From: an uncultured Lachnospiraceae bacterium
Lineage (GTDB): Bacteria; Bacillota; Clostridia; Lachnospirales; Lachnospiraceae
Direction: 5' to 3'
DNA: 64,000 nt
Assembly (NCBI GenBank): GCA_947630025.1
Contig: CANRFZ010000011.1
Span: forward strand, 1-64,000
Within the stretch, counting starts at the first letter, position 1; every line of letters begins with the position of its first letter. Positions 31,049 through 41,001 of this stretch are shown here, piece by piece. Below the pieces are notes generated by a model. The model made no database searches and had not been told where the DNA came from. It saw only the letters and a list, made by a program, of their open reading frames with translations. A program made the translations under genes and the position numbers.

Positions 31049-31150
31049 CCGTTTCTTACTTTATGATTATATACCATTTTATATCATAAGTAAAATCAAT
31101 ATTTATTATATTTGTTATAAGTTAGGTGAATGGTGCGTGGGTGAGGCATC

Positions 31151-32671
31151 TTACTGCAGGCCGTCCACGAGATCGTCCGCCTTGTAACCCTTGCCTGCAA
31201 TCGTGATGGACAGATTCTCTCCGCAGCCCGAAAATACGCTATCTCCTATGTCTATTGTTCCGTCTCCGACAACTACCGTTTCCAGCGCTTCACAGAATTG
31301 AAACGCCTGATCGTCAATGGTAATCTCATCGTCCGCCCCTGCGTCAGGGCATATCGCAACACTGACAAGATCCTCGCAGCCGTAGAAAGCACGTTCGCCC
31401 AGCGTTACCAGACTGCCGTCGATCGTTACCTCTGTCAAATCCTCGCAGCTTGAAAACACGCTATCTCCCATGACGACTTCCGATCCGGTAATGGTCAGGC
31501 TCTCCAGAGAGCTATACTGAAAAGCACAATCTTCCAATGTCAGAGAACAGTCTTTCATTTCGATAGCCACCGAATCTTCGCAGTTATAAAAAGCATATTT
31601 GTCCGCCGCCAGCGTACTGTCGGCAATCGTGATAGAATCAAGGCCTTCACAGGACGAAAAAGCGCTTTCTTCTATCTCCAGCTCGCAGCCGCTGATCGCT
31701 ATACTAATATAGTCCCCATACTGAAACACACATTTTCCAACCGTTCCCGTGCAGCCTGCAATCGTCAGTTCCGCGCCGTCTCCGCAGTTGTAAAAGGCAT
31801 AATCCTCCATTTCCAACACACTGTCCGACAACATAATCATAACGGCGTCTTCACACGAGGAAAACGCACTTTTCTCCATGCTCAGCTCACAGTTATTGAT
31901 TGTGATATTAGCGATATCGCCGTACTGAAAAGCAGATTCTCCGATCGTTCCGGTACAACTGTCGATTACCACACTCATATCCTTACCGCAGTTATAAAAG
32001 GCAGTGGCCTCCGTTTGAATATCGCAGCCGCTGATCGTAATCGTATTCAGATCTTCGCAGGAGGAAAACGCGCTCGCCTTTATCGTGGGCGTACCTCCGA
32101 CAATAGTTACCGCCGTAAATTCACCGTATTGAAAAGCGCATTCCCCGACTTCATAATTATAATTTACCAAAGTAACGCTTTCGACATCTTCCAGTGAATA
32201 CATCGCTAATTCATCGATCAGTGTAACCGTGTCTCCATCCGGGCTTTCCGTTGGAATGACGAGATCGGTGTCCGTGCAGGTTCCTATGCCGACAATCGTA
32301 CAGGTGCCGTCCCCATTACTTTCAAACGCTAACCCTTCTGAGGGAACCAGATCCTCCACTGCTATCTGGACCGCCGGGCTGCCCTGCGGTTTATCGCCAT
32401 CATCCGCGTTGTCCTCTGTATCCGCGTCATCTGCGTCATCCGCAGTTTCCGACGCATTTTCGTCCTGCCTTGCCGCTCCGCCGCTTTCCTTCTTTTTCTC
32501 GGCGCCGCTTTCTTCCTGCTTCCCGCCGTTTTCTTTGCTCTCTGCATCTGACGAAGCGCTCTCCTCTTTGGCTGGATCTTGATCGGCGTTTTGGTTTCCA
32601 CACCCCGAGCCGCATAGAACAAGACACATGATAAGGCATAACAAACTGATTTTTTTCTTTCTTGTATTCAT
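31151..32671 (-). CDS. Leucine-rich-repeat (BspA-like) lipoprotein
   Basis: Lipobox 'LVLCGSGCG'; tandem AFQYG / AFSSCED / AFYNCGD repeats of about 23 aa. Start trimmed to MNTRKKK. Confidence 0.85.
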   Translation of the reverse strand: MNTRKKKISLLCLIMCLVLCGSGCGNQNADQDPAKEESASSDAESKENGGKQEESGAEKKKESGGAARQDENASETADDADDADTEDNADDGDKPQGSPAVQIAVEDLVPSEGLAFESNGDGTCTIVGIGTCTDTDLVIPTESPDGDTVTLIDELAMYSLEDVESVTLVNYNYEVGECAFQYGEFTAVTIVGGTPTIKASAFSSCEDLNTITISGCDIQTEATAFYNCGKDMSVVIDSCTGTIGESAFQYGDIANITINNCELSMEKSAFSSCEDAVMIMLSDSVLEMEDYAFYNCGDGAELTIAGCTGTVGKCVFQYGDYISIAISGCELEIEESAFSSCEGLDSITIADSTLAADKYAFYNCEDSVAIEMKDCSLTLEDCAFQYSSLESLTITGSEVVMGDSVFSSCEDLTEVTIDGSLVTLGERAFYGCEDLVSVAICPDAGADDEITIDDQAFQFCEALETVVVGDGTIDIGDSVFSGCGENLSITIAGKGYKADDLVDGLQ

Positions 32672-32838
32672 AGATGATTCCTCCGCTTTTTCACTCCGGT
32701 ATTCCCGGTTTTTGCGCCCTGACACGCCTATACACAGGGCGGCTGCCGCTTTGTTCCGCCTCCTTCCCTAGTGCCGGCAGTTTCCCTGTGTGCGGCGTCA
32801 TGGACTGGTATTTATGAAACAGATATTTGTAAACCGGT

Positions 32839-33165
32839 TTAATTTTTAATCAGATCACATAGAATTTCGATCTGCCGCTGGATATGTTCTTTTTCCATTT
32901 TCAATTTACAGATCTGGTTTTCCAGTATCGGCTTGATGCTGACCCATGGCGCATCGATGATATCCTTTATTTCTTTTATGGAAAAGCCGGCCTCCTGATA
33001 CATTCTGACCATACCGATTCTCTCCTGTGCACTGTCGTCATACAGTAAGTGCCCCATCTTGTTTCTGCCGGTGGATTTCACGATTCCGGCTTTCTCATAT
33101 CCCTGTACTGCCCTTCTTGAAACCTTATACTTAGCACATACTTCGCGTAATGTTGCGTCCTGCAT
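32839..33165 (-). CDS. MerR family transcriptional regulator
   Basis: 'TLREVCAKYKVSRRAVQGYEKAGIV...ERIGMVRMYQEAGFSIKEIKDI'. Confidence 0.88.
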   Translation of the reverse strand: MQDATLREVCAKYKVSRRAVQGYEKAGIVKSTGRNKMGHLLYDDSAQERIGMVRMYQEAGFSIKEIKDIIDAPWVSIKPILENQICKLKMEKEHIQRQIEILCDLIKN

Positions 33166-33192
33166 ACATTTACCTCCTTACCAACGTAAAAT

Positions 33193-33212
33193 TGCACGTT
33201 ACGTGCAGTCAA
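33193..33212 (-). promoter_or_regulatory. MerR-type operator/promoter
   Basis: Palindrome TGCACGTTACGTGCA immediately downstream of TTGACT on the minus strand, 5' of the merR-like gene. Confidence 0.5.
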
Positions 33213-33297
33213 CTGTTTTTTCAAAAACGGGTTTAAATATCTGCTTCATATAAGGACATACTTTTCACGCGAATTTTGTGCCGCCGGATTTGGACAT

Positions 33298-33332
33298 AAA
33301 AAAACCTGCGGGATTGCTCCCACAGGTTTTTT
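33298..33332. terminator. Terminator at 3' end of dynamin-HerA-HNH operon
   Basis: AAAAAAACCTGCGGGATTGCTCCCACAGGTTTTTT. Confidence 0.8.
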
Positions 33333-33378
33333 CATTCTCTGCATTCTTACACGGCTGGTCAGCCTTTTTCACCGGACT

Positions 33379-33834
33379 CTATAATAAATAATCCTGCTCT
33401 TTGATACACACTTTGTCTTGGGACAATAAGATACATATTCCATGTTCTTCATCCCATGCACAGTCGCACAACCAGCCGAACTGTCCTTCCCTGTCAAAAT
33501 ATAACGTTTTGATTCTGATCAGTCTGGTAATAATTTCTCTATTGACGTTATCCCTGTTGATCTGCTCGGGAATATTGGCTTCTGATGCAATCGCATCATA
33601 ATGATCCAAATAATATTTCAGAAGGACGTCGGGTGTCTCCTTAATATAGTTGGCACAATCAGCCAGATACTTTTTATAGGAATCTCTCTGCACATCCAAA
33701 ATGTCCTGCCCCGTATATGCCTCCGCAACAATGCGCATTTTTACGGTTCTGCCAAACGCGCTCATTTCTTCGCGTTTCACCCATGAATGGTCATATTCCA
33801 TTCCGCCAAATACCGGATCGTTTATTTTATTCAT
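33379..33834 (-). CDS. Putative immunity-type protein (DUF6985-like)
   Basis: 'DPVFGGMEYDHSWVKREEMSAFGRTVKMRIVAEAY...SYKKYL'; overlaps the end of the HNH toxin gene by 8 nt. Confidence 0.5.
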   Translation of the reverse strand: MNKINDPVFGGMEYDHSWVKREEMSAFGRTVKMRIVAEAYTGQDILDVQRDSYKKYLADCANYIKETPDVLLKYYLDHYDAIASEANIPEQINRDNVNREIITRLIRIKTLYFDREGQFGWLCDCAWDEEHGICILLSQDKVCIKEQDYLL

Positions 33835-34498
33835 TTCGTAACCACTCCTCCATATTGATTTCTCGTTTCTTCTCAGAAATACCGCCAGAATGCGGCACAT
33901 TGTTATGTATGATCGACGGTACTTTATCCATCGTTTCACAGTCACGCCGTTCGTTCCATGTATAACGGTTTTCCTTCCGCCACTCCTTTACCTCCTCCGG
34001 AGAGCATCCACGTTTTTCGGCTATATATTCATCCGCCTGCTTAAAATTTTTATCTCTGTTATCCGTAAACTCTGCGATATGCGCTTCCCCTTTTGAAACT
34101 TCGCTAAAGTCAGGCTCGCCCTTATTAAATTTTATTCCTTCCATGTTATAGCTTTTCAGGATTTCGCCAAAAGTTTTTCCATCCGGATTGGACTTCTCCG
34201 GTATCTTGTCGGCATCGGGAATCCATAGCGAATCTCCTCTTTCGCCTTCCCACACGCCATCGGATTTGGGCAGAATTTCCCGGTGCGTTCCGTCACTTTT
34301 CAAAGCCCCGGTCTCTTTGAACGCTCCGCTGCTTTCCTGTGCCTTCGCCTCCTGCGCCGCCTTGTTCCATTCGTATTTGACGGCCTCGTTAAGTTCCTTT
34401 ACAGTCATCTCTTTTTCCGGCTTGATGCGTCTGAAATTTTCGACCGGCTGCTGCTTTGTTTCCATTATGTCTGTACGCGATAATTCTCCGCCTCTCAA
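33827..34498 (-). CDS. HNH-type nuclease toxin domain protein (polymorphic-toxin C-terminal-like)
   Basis: 'LWIPDADKIPEKSNPDGKTFGEIL...GEPDFSEVSKGEAHIAEFTDNRDKNFKQAD...YTWNERRDCETMDKVPSIIHNNVPHSGGIS'; TTG start with GGAGG about 9 nt upstream. Confidence 0.7.
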   Translation of the reverse strand: MRGGELSRTDIMETKQQPVENFRRIKPEKEMTVKELNEAVKYEWNKAAQEAKAQESSGAFKETGALKSDGTHREILPKSDGVWEGERGDSLWIPDADKIPEKSNPDGKTFGEILKSYNMEGIKFNKGEPDFSEVSKGEAHIAEFTDNRDKNFKQADEYIAEKRGCSPEEVKEWRKENRYTWNERRDCETMDKVPSIIHNNVPHSGGISEKKREINMEEWLRNE

Positions 34499-37400
34499 AA
34501 TACACCGCCTCCATTTCTGTATTCTTCTAAAAAGATGTTCAACATATTTTTATAAGAATTTTCTCTCATCATCTGTTCATTCAAAATAAGCAGAATTATA
34601 AGATCTACCTGCTTTTTTGAATATCCTTTGACGGAAGGTTCCAGTTTCTCAATGACTGCTTCTACCCATTCATGCACGTCTTTGTCTTTATAGTCCGCTG
34701 CGGCTTCGATGGCCTCTTTCGCCTTGAAGAAGTCATACATCAGACATCGAAATGTTTCTATTTCCATCTCACTTTCCGCTTCTATACAGTCAAGGAAATC
34801 TACCTTTACAAGCGAATTAAGCCTTGACCTGATGACCAGATTTTTCAATTCCCTCAGATCCTCTTTATCGCCTTTTTGAAACAGTCGCCGATCCGTAATG
34901 TACTGTAAGAGGGAGTCCATTAGTCTGTCATCTTTTTTAATAAACGCTTCATTCATTTTTGCATCAAAGGAATAACTGGCAAAATCTCCTTCATGCTTCT
35001 CAACCCTGCACAATACCGGCTGAATCCATTCGTTCTGATATACCGCACCGACGCCGCAGGGGAGTTTGGCAAGTTCTTTTATCTGATCCTCATTAAGATT
35101 TGCCGCCCGTCCTACCAATTCCCTGTCGCTTTGATCGGGCAGCCGCATGATAATTTTGGTATTCGTATTTCTTATGACAGACATATCCATCAAACCCGGC
35201 GCCTGATCTGCAATCATAAATCCTTCTCCGTAAGTTCTCATCTCCGCGATTGCGTTTGCGATCATCTCAACGCTCTTACCGAGAATATTGGCACTCTCCG
35301 TAGACTGCGCGGACGATGTGCGTCTCAGAAGATTATGCGCCTCCTCCAGAACCGTAATATGGCGCATATCCGCGTTCATGGGAATATCTCCGGCCATTCT
35401 GAATTCCTGCAGTTTGAGAACAAGCATACCCATCAGCAGCGACTTGGTTTCTGACGAACCGACCCGGCTCAAATCGATAATCACGTTTTGTTCAAACAGT
35501 TCTTCTCCCGACAGTTCATCCGCGGAGAACACCAGACCGTTGATTCCGGTCGTCAAAGACTGCAGCCTCGTCAGCAGGGAACCTTTATACGCCCCTTTGT
35601 TTTCGTTATCATACTCACTGCTTTCAATGATAATCTTGATATTCCGCGCCACATCAGAAAAATCAGGATACAGATTTTGATCATATTTATTGACGGAAGA
35701 CAACAGATCCCATCCGCAGTCAGTATACGCCTTTTCCACCGCACTTTTCAGTACTGCCGGCATCGCCGCATACATCGGCCAGCAGACGTTAAACAACTCC
35801 ACCAGTCTGTCCAGATGCTCCAATATATGTATCTTCTCCGGAAAACTGAACGGATTGATTCTGAGCAGCGGCGCCAAGCCGGGATTCGTGCCGTACACTC
35901 TGACGTCTTCGCCTTTTCCAAACACGTTCTTATATTCCCCTTTGGCCGGTTCCACGACGAGAAAATGTACGCCCGCCTCCCGCGCACTGGCCAGAATATG
36001 ATAAACGGTATTACTCTTGCCGGAACCGGTGCTGCCCGTAATAAATACGTGGGATTTCAAAGATTCCAGCGACAACTCCACCGGACTTTTTTCCACATGG
36101 TTCATATGGAAAATTCTGCCTAAAACAATCTTTCCGCCATTCTCATCCGTGCTGCCATAAGTAGATACATTACGGCCAAATCCCGCACATTCCAATACCG
36201 GAAGACCGGACACCGACTTCTGCGGAAAATTAAGCGAGTATGCGAGCTCTTTTCCCGACAGGCTTGTGGTGGCCGTCACTATAGAGGGATACTCGTTATA
36301 TTCCTCATCCGCTTCTATCACGCCGGGATTCAGCCCGAAAACAGGGTGCCGCAGCTCTCTGACATATGCGCTGATCACTTTTGCCGCATCCCTCTCCTCA
36401 TCGACGTTTCCACGCCATAGGTTAATCGCCGACTTAGACATATAGGACTCCTCTCCGAGAGTCAGCGCGAGATAAGAATGTGCGACATTATTGGCAATAT
36501 TCTGGTCTTCGCTCAAAACATATGCTGCAAAATCCCACATTCCGAGAGCCGTGCTTTGCTCCAGCCGCTTCATCTGCGACTCCAGCAGTTCCAGCGCGTG
36601 TTTTATATTATAGTTGGTAAACGATTGTGTAATACCTTCCGTTTTTCCGACCGTGGCCGTAACCGTCGATGCTCTGGCGAAATTCGCGCCAAAATTCGCA
36701 CCCAGATTTACGCCCTTGCTGCGTCCGGACGTTGCTGCCATCGCTTTGGTAACCGCTTTTCCCAACGTGTTCGCAACCGCCGTCCCCGTGGTCTTGGCCA
36801 CGCTATCGGAAACCGACTGTGTGAAGCCCCGGGTAAGCGTGTCCGTTGCGGTCTTTCCGAGAGCCCGGGCCGTGCTTTCTGTCCATCCGCTGCTCTGGGA
36901 TACCGCTTCGGATACATTCTGCATGGTGGAATCGCCTTTGGCGACACTGTTGTTTTCACCTTGGTTATACCCACCGCTAACTCCTATTGCTCCTCCTACT
37001 CCTACTCCGGCTCCTATCCCGAAAGGATGAAATGCAGCTTCTGTTTCAACGTTCAATCCAGCGTTTGCTCCGACATTCCAGCCGGAATATGTTCCCTTTG
37101 TTTTTGTGGTAGAATTGGTAGTTCCCTCAGTATTTGTCGTGCTGGTTCCCGACGTTCCGCTGGTGCCGTCCGTGGTAGTCTTGCTTTCGGATGTTCCCTC
37201 TGAGCGGGCTCTGCTGCCGGATTCCGAGGATGATGTGCCTTCCGTGACAGTGCCGCTCTGTGATTCCGTATCCGTCGTCGATGAACTGTCCGTCGTTCCC
37301 TCCGAATCCGTAACGGAATAGTTGGTGCCATTCTGCACACCTGCGCTGGCGCCGATGTTTACCCCTGCCGTTGCCGATGAGCCAAACGACCGATTATCAT

Positions 37401-38217
37401 TGAAGTGATAGTCTGTCTGCCACGTCGCATAAGGAGCCAGTCCGGAATAAAATTCTCCCAGCTTGAGTTTTCTCTCCTCCACATCTTTGATAGGCGTAGC
37501 CAGAAGCACTATCGTATATTCCGTCTTCTTGGAATCCGGCACAATCCCATCCAGCAGCTTTTCTATCGTCTGGCTGATGAATTTTTCTGATTTTTCCGTC
37601 GGTATATTGGAGGCCGTGGCGACAGAATATGCCCTGTCGTTATCCATGCAGGGAAGCACGCCCATGCCCTCATCCCGCCATTCCGCGCCCGGAAAATTTC
37701 CCCGGATCGCTTCGATCAGACGGCTCTTATAAATATCCGCATTGACGCTGCTATCATCATTCTGTGTATTGACGACTGCCAGATAAACATTGGTATTTGT
37801 CCGGGTTCTATGGAATACAAGCGCAATATTGCAGTCTTCATTCGACAGGACGGCATACACATTGACCAGCTTTTCAAGACTGTTCTCTTTGGCATCCACC
37901 ACCCATTTTGTAATATTGAAATATCTGATATTGTGTAATGTATCAAACGGCTTGTCATATTCTGCGGTTTGCTCAACCGGAAGATACAGTTCTTTGATCT
38001 GGGAGAGATACGCATTGAATATCTCAATACTGCTGGCGGCCATCATCCGCTCGGTGCGTCTGACGGCATTCTCATCCGTAGGATCGGGCTCCTCCAGAAG
38101 ATACTGCTCCCTCTGAAGCTGCACGTCTTCCAACTGCGCAGAACTCAGTTCCGCCAGCTTTGCGATGCGGTTCCCGGCACGGTCGCCAATACGTTTTACG
38201 ATATTTTTTACACCCAT
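34495..38217 (-). CDS. HerA/FtsK-like ATPase with Ser/Thr/Gly-rich insertion
   Basis: Walker A GSTGSGKSNT, Walker B HITVLEEAHNLL, 'RLPDQSDRELVGRAANL'; low-complexity S/T/G segment in the N-terminal third. Confidence 0.85.
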   Translation of the reverse strand: MGVKNIVKRIGDRAGNRIAKLAELSSAQLEDVQLQREQYLLEEPDPTDENAVRRTERMMAASSIEIFNAYLSQIKELYLPVEQTAEYDKPFDTLHNIRYFNITKWVVDAKENSLEKLVNVYAVLSNEDCNIALVFHRTRTNTNVYLAVVNTQNDDSSVNADIYKSRLIEAIRGNFPGAEWRDEGMGVLPCMDNDRAYSVATASNIPTEKSEKFISQTIEKLLDGIVPDSKKTEYTIVLLATPIKDVEERKLKLGEFYSGLAPYATWQTDYHFNDNRSFGSSATAGVNIGASAGVQNGTNYSVTDSEGTTDSSSTTDTESQSGTVTEGTSSSESGSRARSEGTSESKTTTDGTSGTSGTSTTNTEGTTNSTTKTKGTYSGWNVGANAGLNVETEAAFHPFGIGAGVGVGGAIGVSGGYNQGENNSVAKGDSTMQNVSEAVSQSSGWTESTARALGKTATDTLTRGFTQSVSDSVAKTTGTAVANTLGKAVTKAMAATSGRSKGVNLGANFGANFARASTVTATVGKTEGITQSFTNYNIKHALELLESQMKRLEQSTALGMWDFAAYVLSEDQNIANNVAHSYLALTLGEESYMSKSAINLWRGNVDEERDAAKVISAYVRELRHPVFGLNPGVIEADEEYNEYPSIVTATTSLSGKELAYSLNFPQKSVSGLPVLECAGFGRNVSTYGSTDENGGKIVLGRIFHMNHVEKSPVELSLESLKSHVFITGSTGSGKSNTVYHILASAREAGVHFLVVEPAKGEYKNVFGKGEDVRVYGTNPGLAPLLRINPFSFPEKIHILEHLDRLVELFNVCWPMYAAMPAVLKSAVEKAYTDCGWDLLSSVNKYDQNLYPDFSDVARNIKIIIESSEYDNENKGAYKGSLLTRLQSLTTGINGLVFSADELSGEELFEQNVIIDLSRVGSSETKSLLMGMLVLKLQEFRMAGDIPMNADMRHITVLEEAHNLLRRTSSAQSTESANILGKSVEMIANAIAEMRTYGEGFMIADQAPGLMDMSVIRNTNTKIIMRLPDQSDRELVGRAANLNEDQIKELAKLPCGVGAVYQNEWIQPVLCRVEKHEGDFASYSFDAKMNEAFIKKDDRLMDSLLQYITDRRLFQKGDKEDLRELKNLVIRSRLNSLVKVDFLDCIEAESEMEIETFRCLMYDFFKAKEAIEAAADYKDKDVHEWVEAVIEKLEPSVKGYSKKQVDLIILLILNEQMMRENSYKNMLNIFLEEYRNGGGVF

Positions 38218-38231
38218 ACACTCACCCCTGC

Positions 38232-40820
38232 CTATTCAAGTTCTTTCCACGACATCATGTGTTCCATGGTCTGAAAGGAATTCGATATTGTCTGCCGATT
38301 TGTCTGTAATTCAAGAATCCGTTCAGACTCCTCCCGTATAGACTCCGTGAGTTCTCTGAGCTCCGGATTGTAAATTGTTATGTTTTCTTCGATCAGCGCC
38401 TGCAGGTTTTTCTGCCACGCTTCAAAGCTCGAGAAACACCCTTTATTGATAAGCTGCGCCATCTCGCCGATATTATGCCGGATTTTCGTATTGTAGCTTG
38501 CCGCCAGTCTTGCGGTATTCAGGCGCTCCGATGCGACCAGCCTGATACCCAGGACATTTCCCCGAAGGAATTTGGCCTTGATAAATACCTTATCCGCACC
38601 GTCGTCATAACGAAAATCCTGATAACTCAGAATCACATTGGAAAGCTCGGCGCGCTGCTTTTCCGGCAAAGCATCCGAACCGTTGATAAGCCGGATCATT
38701 TCTTCTCGATACACCCGCTCATTTTCCTGCCAATGCTGCCTTGCCGCTTCTCCCAGCCGTTCCTGCGCGTCAACCATGTTTTTCCTAAATTCCTTGACTA
38801 CAAATTTAAGCAGGCGGTCAGATGTCTCCTTGTCTACATTCTGTCTGGTCATATCCATGCTTTCTTTCTTCCCCTGCATGGCTTTGGAATCCGACACCCA
38901 CTCTGTCGCAAGATCCCGAACCCGATCCGTAAAGTTTCCTTTGAGCAGATTCTGGCTATTTTCTATGAAATTCCTCCATCGGCTATCCTTTGCCCCTTCA
39001 TAATCCTTTTCAAATACGGCAAAACCGGCCTTCTGCTCGTTCTCCTCGGCGAACGACCTGTCTTTCTTTTCAATCTCCTCTGCGGTATATTCATATGCCT
39101 GCAGTTCTTTCGAGTCCTTCACATAAGTCTGCATAAATGTTTTGGACTCTTTTTCATATTTCTTTATCGAGTCCGTGGTACTCTTACGGATGTTTTCGAC
39201 AAGCTCAAACTTCTTTGCGTCAAGATCCTGTTCCCACTTCTGTTTCCTTTTTTGATAGGAAGCCGTCTTCTCCGCGATCTTCTGCTCGGCTTTATCGATA
39301 ACTCCCTGCAGAAACATATATACCATCTGACATTTATTGTAGGCCGCATATCTGCTTGCAAACTGCTCCATTTCCATTTCCACGCAGTAAAGGCCGCTGT
39401 TCGCATAAATGAGATTTTCGCAGGCCGCCGAATACTCTATAGCCCTGCGTTTCATCTGCTCCGGCATTATGTTATACTCATACAGTTTCTTATACGACCT
39501 CGCGGCAGGGTCAGAAAACTTCCTCTCCTTTTCTTCAAAAACATCCAGAATGTAATCGCTGACAATCCCCTCCGGATTTTTGGCGCCGAGCCCCATGACG
39601 GACGAAACGAAATAGATACCGCTTGAATACATTTTTTCAACCGACTCATATTCCATCAAATCGCTTATCGCTTCCCTGTCCAGACCGTTCTTGGGCAGTT
39701 CTACAGAATCGGCCTTATTGACTACGATCATGGTGAATCTCTTGTCCAAAGCGTCAATCTCGTATAACATATCACAAAGAGTGGAGTTGTCCACACTGTC
39801 GATGGAATCATACCCGGACACCCAGATAGGTATACCGTTGGAAAATTTCTCCAGCGCTTTCTTCAGCACTTCTTTATGATCCATATTGGTTTTGGAATTA
39901 GACCCCGGCGTGTCAAAAATCACAAATTCATTGTGGGACTGCCCCAGTCTGCCGTTCTCGCTGAAAGGAACTTCCACCCTGATCACATTACCGATAAGAG
40001 TTGTGGAGCGATCCTTCTTTTCAAAGGAATTGATGATATCAATCGTTTTATTGACCATATGAAACAAATCGGGGGCTTCCATCCGCTCGATGGCAGCCTG
40101 AATCTCTTGTATAAGATCTTTCTCTTTGTCACCCGCAAATACCCGGCAGGATTTATGGTCAAATTGCAATTCATATTCTTCACATTCTTCATGGGAACGA
40201 TATGCAAAAGATATTTTGGCTCTGTCCTCTTGTCCGGAACGTTTGATTTCATAAATTTTGGAAGTGATGGGATCGCCGCCGCTGGGTAATATTTCATATC
40301 CGATGAGCGCATTGATAAATGTTGATTTTCCCGCACTGTAATTGCCAAAAATACAGATCGGAATAATGTCCTTCAGGGCATCGGAAACTTTTTCCAGACC
40401 GTCGGTTATCGCGGCGTCATCTTTGACAATATTTTTTATAATGGGCTGCACCGTATCAAAGATTTCCTTGGCATGGTCCAGAATATCTCTTGCATTTTCC
40501 AGCACACGGGTGGATCGAAGCAGATGTACTTTATCTTTGTGGGCTTCGTCGCTGCATACATTCTCTATTTCTTCATACTCATCCTCAGTTCCCTCAAAGA
40601 TAAGTTCGACCTGACCGGTTCCGACATAATACTCCGAAACAATGGTGTCTACTATTTCTTTCACCTGAAAGGGCAGAAATATCTTCTCTCCATTGTTTTC
40701 GCGGAGACGGCTGTTAATACTGTCCTGCTCTATGTTTTCCCACGTGTCGGACTGTTTTTTGTAAATGTAATAAGTCAGACTGCGTTCATAGGGGTTGCTG
40801 ATCATTTTAATTTTGGCCAT
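38232..40820 (-). CDS. Dynamin-family large GTPase
   Basis: G1 GNYSAGKSTFINALIG, DTPG, NKAD motifs; about 862 aa with long coiled-coil C-terminal region. Confidence 0.88.
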   Translation of the reverse strand: MAKIKMISNPYERSLTYYIYKKQSDTWENIEQDSINSRLRENNGEKIFLPFQVKEIVDTIVSEYYVGTGQVELIFEGTEDEYEEIENVCSDEAHKDKVHLLRSTRVLENARDILDHAKEIFDTVQPIIKNIVKDDAAITDGLEKVSDALKDIIPICIFGNYSAGKSTFINALIGYEILPSGGDPITSKIYEIKRSGQEDRAKISFAYRSHEECEEYELQFDHKSCRVFAGDKEKDLIQEIQAAIERMEAPDLFHMVNKTIDIINSFEKKDRSTTLIGNVIRVEVPFSENGRLGQSHNEFVIFDTPGSNSKTNMDHKEVLKKALEKFSNGIPIWVSGYDSIDSVDNSTLCDMLYEIDALDKRFTMIVVNKADSVELPKNGLDREAISDLMEYESVEKMYSSGIYFVSSVMGLGAKNPEGIVSDYILDVFEEKERKFSDPAARSYKKLYEYNIMPEQMKRRAIEYSAACENLIYANSGLYCVEMEMEQFASRYAAYNKCQMVYMFLQGVIDKAEQKIAEKTASYQKRKQKWEQDLDAKKFELVENIRKSTTDSIKKYEKESKTFMQTYVKDSKELQAYEYTAEEIEKKDRSFAEENEQKAGFAVFEKDYEGAKDSRWRNFIENSQNLLKGNFTDRVRDLATEWVSDSKAMQGKKESMDMTRQNVDKETSDRLLKFVVKEFRKNMVDAQERLGEAARQHWQENERVYREEMIRLINGSDALPEKQRAELSNVILSYQDFRYDDGADKVFIKAKFLRGNVLGIRLVASERLNTARLAASYNTKIRHNIGEMAQLINKGCFSSFEAWQKNLQALIEENITIYNPELRELTESIREESERILELQTNRQTISNSFQTMEHMMSWKELE

Positions 40821-40889
40821 CTTTCGTAACCTCATTTCGTTTTTTTAATACTTGCATTTTTTTCAATAAATTACAAAAACCGACATCTC

Positions 40890-40919
40890 ATTATACGTCA
40901 ATTCGCTCCTGCTTGGCAA
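40890..40919 (-). promoter_or_regulatory. Promoter of dynamin-HerA-HNH operon
   Basis: Minus strand TTGCCA (40919-40914), 18 nt, TATAAT (40895-40890). Confidence 0.55.
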
Positions 40920-40956
40920 GGCTAAGATCATAATAAGATCCGCCTCCTGTTATTAT

Positions 40957-40991
40957 AAAAAAAGACTATGTGCTCCCACATAGCCTTTTCC
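40957..40991. terminator. Terminator after arsR-like gene
   Basis: AAAAAAAGACTATGTGCTCCCACATAGCCTTTT hairpin. Confidence 0.75.
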
Positions 40992-41001
40992 AGTCAAAAC
41001 C

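Follow-up and report, generated by a model that had tools for sequence, protein, structure and literature searches.

Operon organization

Why would a bacterium encode a dynamin-like GTPase and a HerA-like ATPase in one operon with an HNH nuclease toxin and a small immunity-like protein? The question is raised by a minus-strand locus of an uncultured Lachnospiraceae bacterium (assembly GCA_947630025.1, contig CANRFZ010000011.1), within a 64,000-nucleotide stretch (positions 1–64,000 of the forward strand) that we refer to as the window. An initial annotation of this DNA had described the four genes as an operon and had proposed either an anti-phage defence system or a toxin-translocation machine. 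The operon is real and correctly placed: all four open reading frames (ORFs) are present, and the Pfam domains (Dynamin_N, DUF87/HerA, WHH and DUF6985) agree with the original calls. On the sequence comparisons described below, it is a machine-linked polymorphic toxin system, in which the GTPase and ATPase are constant and a tagged, swappable toxin travels with a matched partner. The function we favour is interbacterial toxin delivery, to which we would assign a probability of roughly 0.55.

The genes are tightly packed, as first described. A 14-nt gap separates the GTPase gene from the gene for the 1240-aa ATPase, the TTG start of the toxin gene overlaps the ATPase stop (34498/34495), and the toxin and partner genes overlap by 8 nt (33834/33827). 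The proposed sigma-70-like promoter (TTGCCA-18-TATAAT, 40890–40919, minus strand), a consensus match only, agrees with the consensus at 11 of 12 positions and scored best of 22 sites in the region. The intrinsic terminator at 33298–33332 (minus strand) can be read directly from the sequence as a hairpin followed by a T-run, but it was absent from the list of an automatic scan.

Recurrence of the four-gene architecture

We scanned an alignment of the ATPase against about 85,000 species genomes and obtained at least 554 ATPase relatives. The best 80 of these (47–76% identity), orthologous loci picked by ATPase similarity alone, came from Lachnospiraceae, Ruminococcus, Streptococcus, Carnobacterium, Coriobacteriia, Bifidobacterium and one Bacteroidales metagenome-assembled genome. 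Nearly all 80 loci encode a dynamin-like protein, the ATPase, a toxin of ~220 aa and a partner of ~125 aa in that order on the same strand, with median intergenic gaps of 12, −4 and −4 nt, and in nearly all of them the upstream gene matches the GTPase of the window. Because the loci were chosen on the ATPase alone, recurrence of the order to this extent is far beyond chance. Neither of the two outcomes that the initial annotation had named as fatal to its proposal, rare co-occurrence of the genes or a match to an already named system, was seen.

The upstream gene has diverged in a few loci. It is shortened to 504 aa in L122 and L124 and full-length (845 aa) in L118 and L119; all four keep the "SNPY" N-terminal region, and no GTPase motifs are recognizable in any of them. 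More distant relatives, such as those carried by E. coli, Lactococcus and Treponema plasmids, have two dynamins and additional small proteins, and in the diderm plasmid forms (E. coli and Treponema) one of the additional proteins has a hydrophobic C-terminal segment. The E. coli plasmid version was found at high identity in only 1 of 5426 E. coli genomes. Eight matches lie on viral contigs, and downstream of most of them is a gene resembling those for nucleases or peptidases, in some cases recognized by eye only. On one such contig (L150:9018-13372), the gene for an ATPase relative precedes genes for several short proteins that begin alike and for a DAHH nuclease with its partner. At L060, a second ATPase, 32% identical, adjoins the system on the opposite strand, and another copy (L059) is present in the same genome. 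Distant ATPase relatives at L151, L152 and L036 adjoin Hsp70-like genes in place of dynamins, and at L151 and L152 genes for HEGRHAYQ metallopeptidase-like proteins come after the ATPase relative. These Hsp70-linked loci perhaps belong to a wider family of motor-plus-effector systems.

Exchangeable cassettes and N-terminal tags

Across loci, the first two genes are constant and the last two vary, which is a positive outcome of the neighbourhood check that had been proposed for this operon. The toxins include WHH/colicin-DNase (31/77), Endonuclease_NS_2 (19 matches) and LHH (4) types; DAHH-type and HHMP-type nucleases, Ntox15, PoNe-like toxins and metallopeptidase forms also occur. The partners include DUF6985 (21) and YezG-like (18) proteins as well as SUKH, PoNi and Tdi1. 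Toxin and partner families form the pairs WHH/DUF6985, NucA/YezG, LHH/SUKH, PoNe/PoNi, Ntox15/Tdi1 and WHH/SUKH, and they covary tightly, with a mutual information of 2.24 bits compared with a maximum of 0.97 after shuffling (70 loci). A second cassette is present in 17 loci. It holds a HELRHAYQ-type metallopeptidase in 16 of them, usually with a partner of ~98 aa; in the remaining locus (L074), the peptidase comes first and a WHH pair second.

An N-terminal region, F..IKPE.gMT..EA..FW, is common to the first toxins and to the peptidases of the second cassettes; we call it a tag. A hidden Markov model (HMM) of this tag recovered first effectors, second-cassette peptidases and the held-out loci L030 and L031. 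Within one ATPase clade, 34 of 37 members have the IKPE tag; outside this clade, no member has it. Two other clades have tags of their own, an FDPDKR repeat in at least 21 of 34 members and PKEIGE in 5 of 6, counts that are descriptive since both rules were written post hoc and overlook some evident cases. Toxin types occur throughout the three clades. The tag follows the ATPase clade, with 11 changes (36 when shuffled), whereas toxin type changes at least 33 times. In 77 genomes of the genus, strong IKPE matches occur solely at ATPase loci; no convincing orphan tagged toxin was found elsewhere in these genomes, the next best match after the three ATPase loci having an E-value of 0.076.

An exchange is seen between L050 and L052. 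Their DNA is 95–97% identical in the machine genes, about 90% in the tag and 86–89% downstream of the cassette. Their toxins and partners are unrelated (NucA/YezG vs. WHH/DUF6985), with nothing but alignment noise between them. This is a clean exchange of a toxin-plus-partner cassette in which one breakpoint falls immediately after the tag. A constant N-terminal region ahead of variable C-terminal toxin domains and an adjoining immunity gene that covaries with the toxin are characteristic of polymorphic toxins; this system shows the former, and its partner gene shows the pairing expected of the latter.

The toxin and its partner in the window

The toxin ORF of the window (33827–34498, minus strand) matches WHH (PF14414, E 2.9e-11) and Colicin-DNase (PF12639, E 3.2e-09), both above curated cut-offs, over a predicted HNH nuclease domain at 33872–34123 on the same strand. 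Its first part (34319–34498, minus strand) is a tag of the IKPE...FW type, which we propose to be a docking or recruitment region on the basis of the tag HMM, its distribution in the genus and the recombination breakpoint. Pfam gave only those two families for this protein, with no LXG/WXG100-like N-terminal domain. At the WH[HE] motif, the window's toxin reads W-N-E, and relatives of the same type that match the pattern have histidine at the middle position.

The partner (33379–33834, minus strand) is a DUF6985 protein (PF22481, E 3.8e-17). Its cluster is paired with the cluster of the window's toxin in 21 loci. This pairing supports the immunity-like role first suggested for it, and the protein is our candidate for the cognate immunity protein. 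No second copy of DUF6985 or WHH was found in the window's own genome.

The machine genes

The GTPase gene is annotated at 38232–40835 (minus strand), encoding ~860 aa with a Dynamin_N match (E 2.9e-17). A more likely start than 40835 is the ATG at 40820 (MAKIKMISNPY..., with GAGG ahead of it), the position at which relatives begin. The structure model had a mean predicted local distance difference test (pLDDT) score of 86, and its best structural matches were BDLP, SynDLP and mitofusin. The predicted combination of a dynamin G domain with a helical neck and trunk is that of bacterial dynamin-like proteins.

The ATPase (34495–38217, minus strand; DUF87/HerA, E 2.1e-13) has the HerA/VirB4 fold together with Walker A (residues 728–735) and Walker B (residues 953–961) motifs, as members of that superfamily do. 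Within them, G728, T730, G731, G733 and K734 and E958, E959, A960 and H961 are invariant in 70 sequences. The core is structurally like VirB4, DndH, HerA and TrwB (Z about 25–33), and the ATPases of SIR2-HerA and DUF4297-HerA are also among its closest structural matches. An insert at about residues 269–529 is rich in Ser, Thr, Gly and Asn and was modeled by AlphaFold with very low confidence (pLDDT <40). None of the four proteins of the window has a strong transmembrane segment, and inspection by eye recognized no signal peptide in them.

Genomic setting

The operon lies in a horizontally acquired island between arsR and purA, at about 31121–41001 (ends approximate). In the three congeners sampled (G028, G030 and G049), arsR sits directly beside purA, 83–175 bp away, so about 9.9 kb has been inserted in the window's genome. 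Genus relatives also have a metal-type P-ATPase gene and purA near each other. GC content inside the island is about 0.41–0.52, compared with 0.53–0.62 in the flank on the arsR side. A close relative of the ATPase is present in 5 of the 77 genus genomes, the window's own included, and this sparse occurrence fits the expectation for a mobile element. The locus had been called a discrete cassette; that description understated its extent, since the island also carries a MerR gene and a leucine-rich repeat (LRR) lipoprotein gene. The latter, of the BspA type, lies at 31151–32725 (minus strand; LRR_5, E 8.7e-50). The MerR and LRR genes are each found near the system in 1 of the 80 loci, so they do not travel with it elsewhere.

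Proposed toxin delivery and its alternatives

Of the two functions originally proposed, the polymorphic-toxin side, with export as a putative step, is better supported by the swapping of cassettes, the tag shared by the toxins and the toxin families. We favour delivery because the cassettes belong to families of intercellular antibacterial toxins, NucA/YezG, LHH/SUKH, PoNe/PoNi, Ntox15/Tdi1 and WHH/SUKH all being known antibacterial toxin–immunity pair families, and because enzymes unrelated to one another bear a clade-specific tag that resembles a cargo signal. Under this model, the partner would serve as an immunity protein, holding the toxin inactive inside its producer, and the tag would dock the toxin onto the ATPase. 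The ATPase ring would then capture and thread the toxin, thereby unfolding or freeing it, and the membrane-remodelling GTPase would couple this handling to a membrane site or vesicle. The toxin would reach neighbouring cells that lack the matching immunity, where the target would be nucleic acid for the nuclease toxins and protein for the peptidase variant, cleaved in either case. A bolder version of delivery, for which the odds seem to us somewhat short of even, is a new protein-delivery machine in which a HerA/VirB4-like motor and the dynamin-like GTPase, in monoderms and diderms alike, deliver tagged, swappable toxins to other cells without a known secretion apparatus.

Several points weigh against delivery. 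With neither a signal peptide nor a strong transmembrane segment, the window's proteins offer no visible conduit across the envelope. It is odd for a secretion apparatus that related forms should occur in both monoderms and diderms without an envelope-specific part, although the diderm forms do have additional proteins, including the one with the hydrophobic C-terminal segment. Anti-phage systems, too, contain HerA ATPases and bacterial dynamins. The tags were sorted into types with the sequences already in view, and the training set of the IKPE HMM came from a single ATPase clade. Finally, the window's own toxin copy may be catalytically dead, because asparagine replaces the histidine of its relatives in the WH[HE] motif.

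The strongest rival, which we consider possible yet rather unlikely, is intracellular defence: the GTPase and ATPase would sense infection or membrane damage and free the toxin from its immunity protein, so that phage or the cell's own nucleic acid is destroyed (abortive infection). Swapping of cassettes would then reflect an arms race with phage inhibitors. HerA-family ATPases act in the SIR2-HerA and DUF4297-HerA defence complexes, whose ATPases resemble this one structurally, and the lack of a recognizable export signal in the window's four proteins and the single core shared by monoderms and diderms are both what a defence system might show. The system is also patchy, plasmid-borne and mobile, and some versions adjoin WYL regulators, which are often associated with defence. 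However, the cognate toxin–partner families belong to intercellular toxins, and several toxins of unrelated kinds bear the tag, as recruited cargo might. No PADLOC system was matched, and 140 genes from the flanks of the 80 loci were mixed in content with no clear defence-island signal, in a comparison that had no matched control.

A second rival, addiction or competition on behalf of a mobile element, is improbable. The toxin–immunity pair would stabilize the plasmid or island that carries it, with the two machine proteins serving the element's DNA or partition functions. The system does occur on conjugative plasmids as well as in the island, and the ATPase core resembles DNA translocases. 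A simple pair, however, needs neither a 1240-aa ATPase nor an 860-aa GTPase, and the constant tag of the toxin follows the ATPase clade, so machine and toxin probably cooperate. That these are chance neighbours in an accessory island with no joint function has next to no probability: unrelated MerR and LRR genes do share the island, but the neighbourhood analysis refuted this idea, with order and tight spacing recurring in nearly all 80 loci across several phyla.

Comparison with known systems

One close known system is that of the polymorphic toxins linked to the type VIIb secretion system (T7SSb; LXG/EsaD with EsaG/YezG). The two share a short N-terminal delivery region, a variable C-terminal nuclease, an adjoining immunity gene and an FtsK/HerA-class motor, and NucA/YezG pairs occur in both. 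Here, in place of EssC, there is a HerA/VirB4-like ATPase that has a Ser-rich insert, together with the dynamin-like GTPase. EssA and YukC/EssB had no match in the window's own genome, which is 82% complete (a B. subtilis control was positive), so nothing found in that genome plainly marks the toxin as T7SS cargo. Toxin delivery by type IV secretion systems (VirB4/VirD4) is similar in that the ATPase core aligns well with VirB4 and the coupling protein TrwB and the cargo carries a recruitment signal; it differs in that no further type IV component is present in our operon and the tag here is N-terminal.

The SIR2-HerA and DUF4297-HerA anti-phage systems likewise place a HerA-type ATPase core beside an effector enzyme, but here a polymorphic toxin, matched by its own partner protein, takes the effector's place, and there is a dynamin partner and a Ser-rich insert. 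The similarity seen with PADLOC was limited to generic matches to HerA and mad8: no HerA system with its specific HerA and partner was found, and the toxin and its partner had no match. The ATPase matched mad8 of MADS at 70 bits, and the other three proteins had no strong mad match. Eleos/LeoABC also has a dynamin-like GTPase within an operon, but it is not known to include a HerA ATPase or a toxin–immunity pair, and the PADLOC search gave no LeoA with LeoBC, only a weak LeoBC match (19.7 bits) to part of the GTPase. Thus, none of the named PADLOC systems matches. A further related family is NCBIfam NF033849 ("serine-rich protein"), which resembles the ATPase including its Ser-rich region; the score of 116 bits is far under the family cut-off of 650, and the NCBIfam entry has no assigned function.

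We found no paper joining dynamins with polymorphic toxins in a search that reached few subscription journals and preprints. The portions consulted of the polymorphic-toxin survey PMC3482391 list no such trafficking mode. The view that this four-component combination is undescribed therefore stands, and the system is apparently new. Its toxin and partner families are already known; the machine pairing and the tags appear new, at least to us.

Significance

Hundreds of bacteria from gut, rumen, oral and dairy environments appear to have this system or a relative of it, judging by the at least 554 ATPase relatives. There is a real chance that it represents a new class of delivery machine. Export of the toxins would make it a secretion route in which a HerA-type motor is paired with a membrane-remodelling GTPase; a role in defence would make it a case of polymorphic toxins directed inward. 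The Lactococcus version, on plasmid pB26B of L. cremoris, resides in a host that is food-grade. The tag that is matched to the machine makes cargo recognition directly testable.

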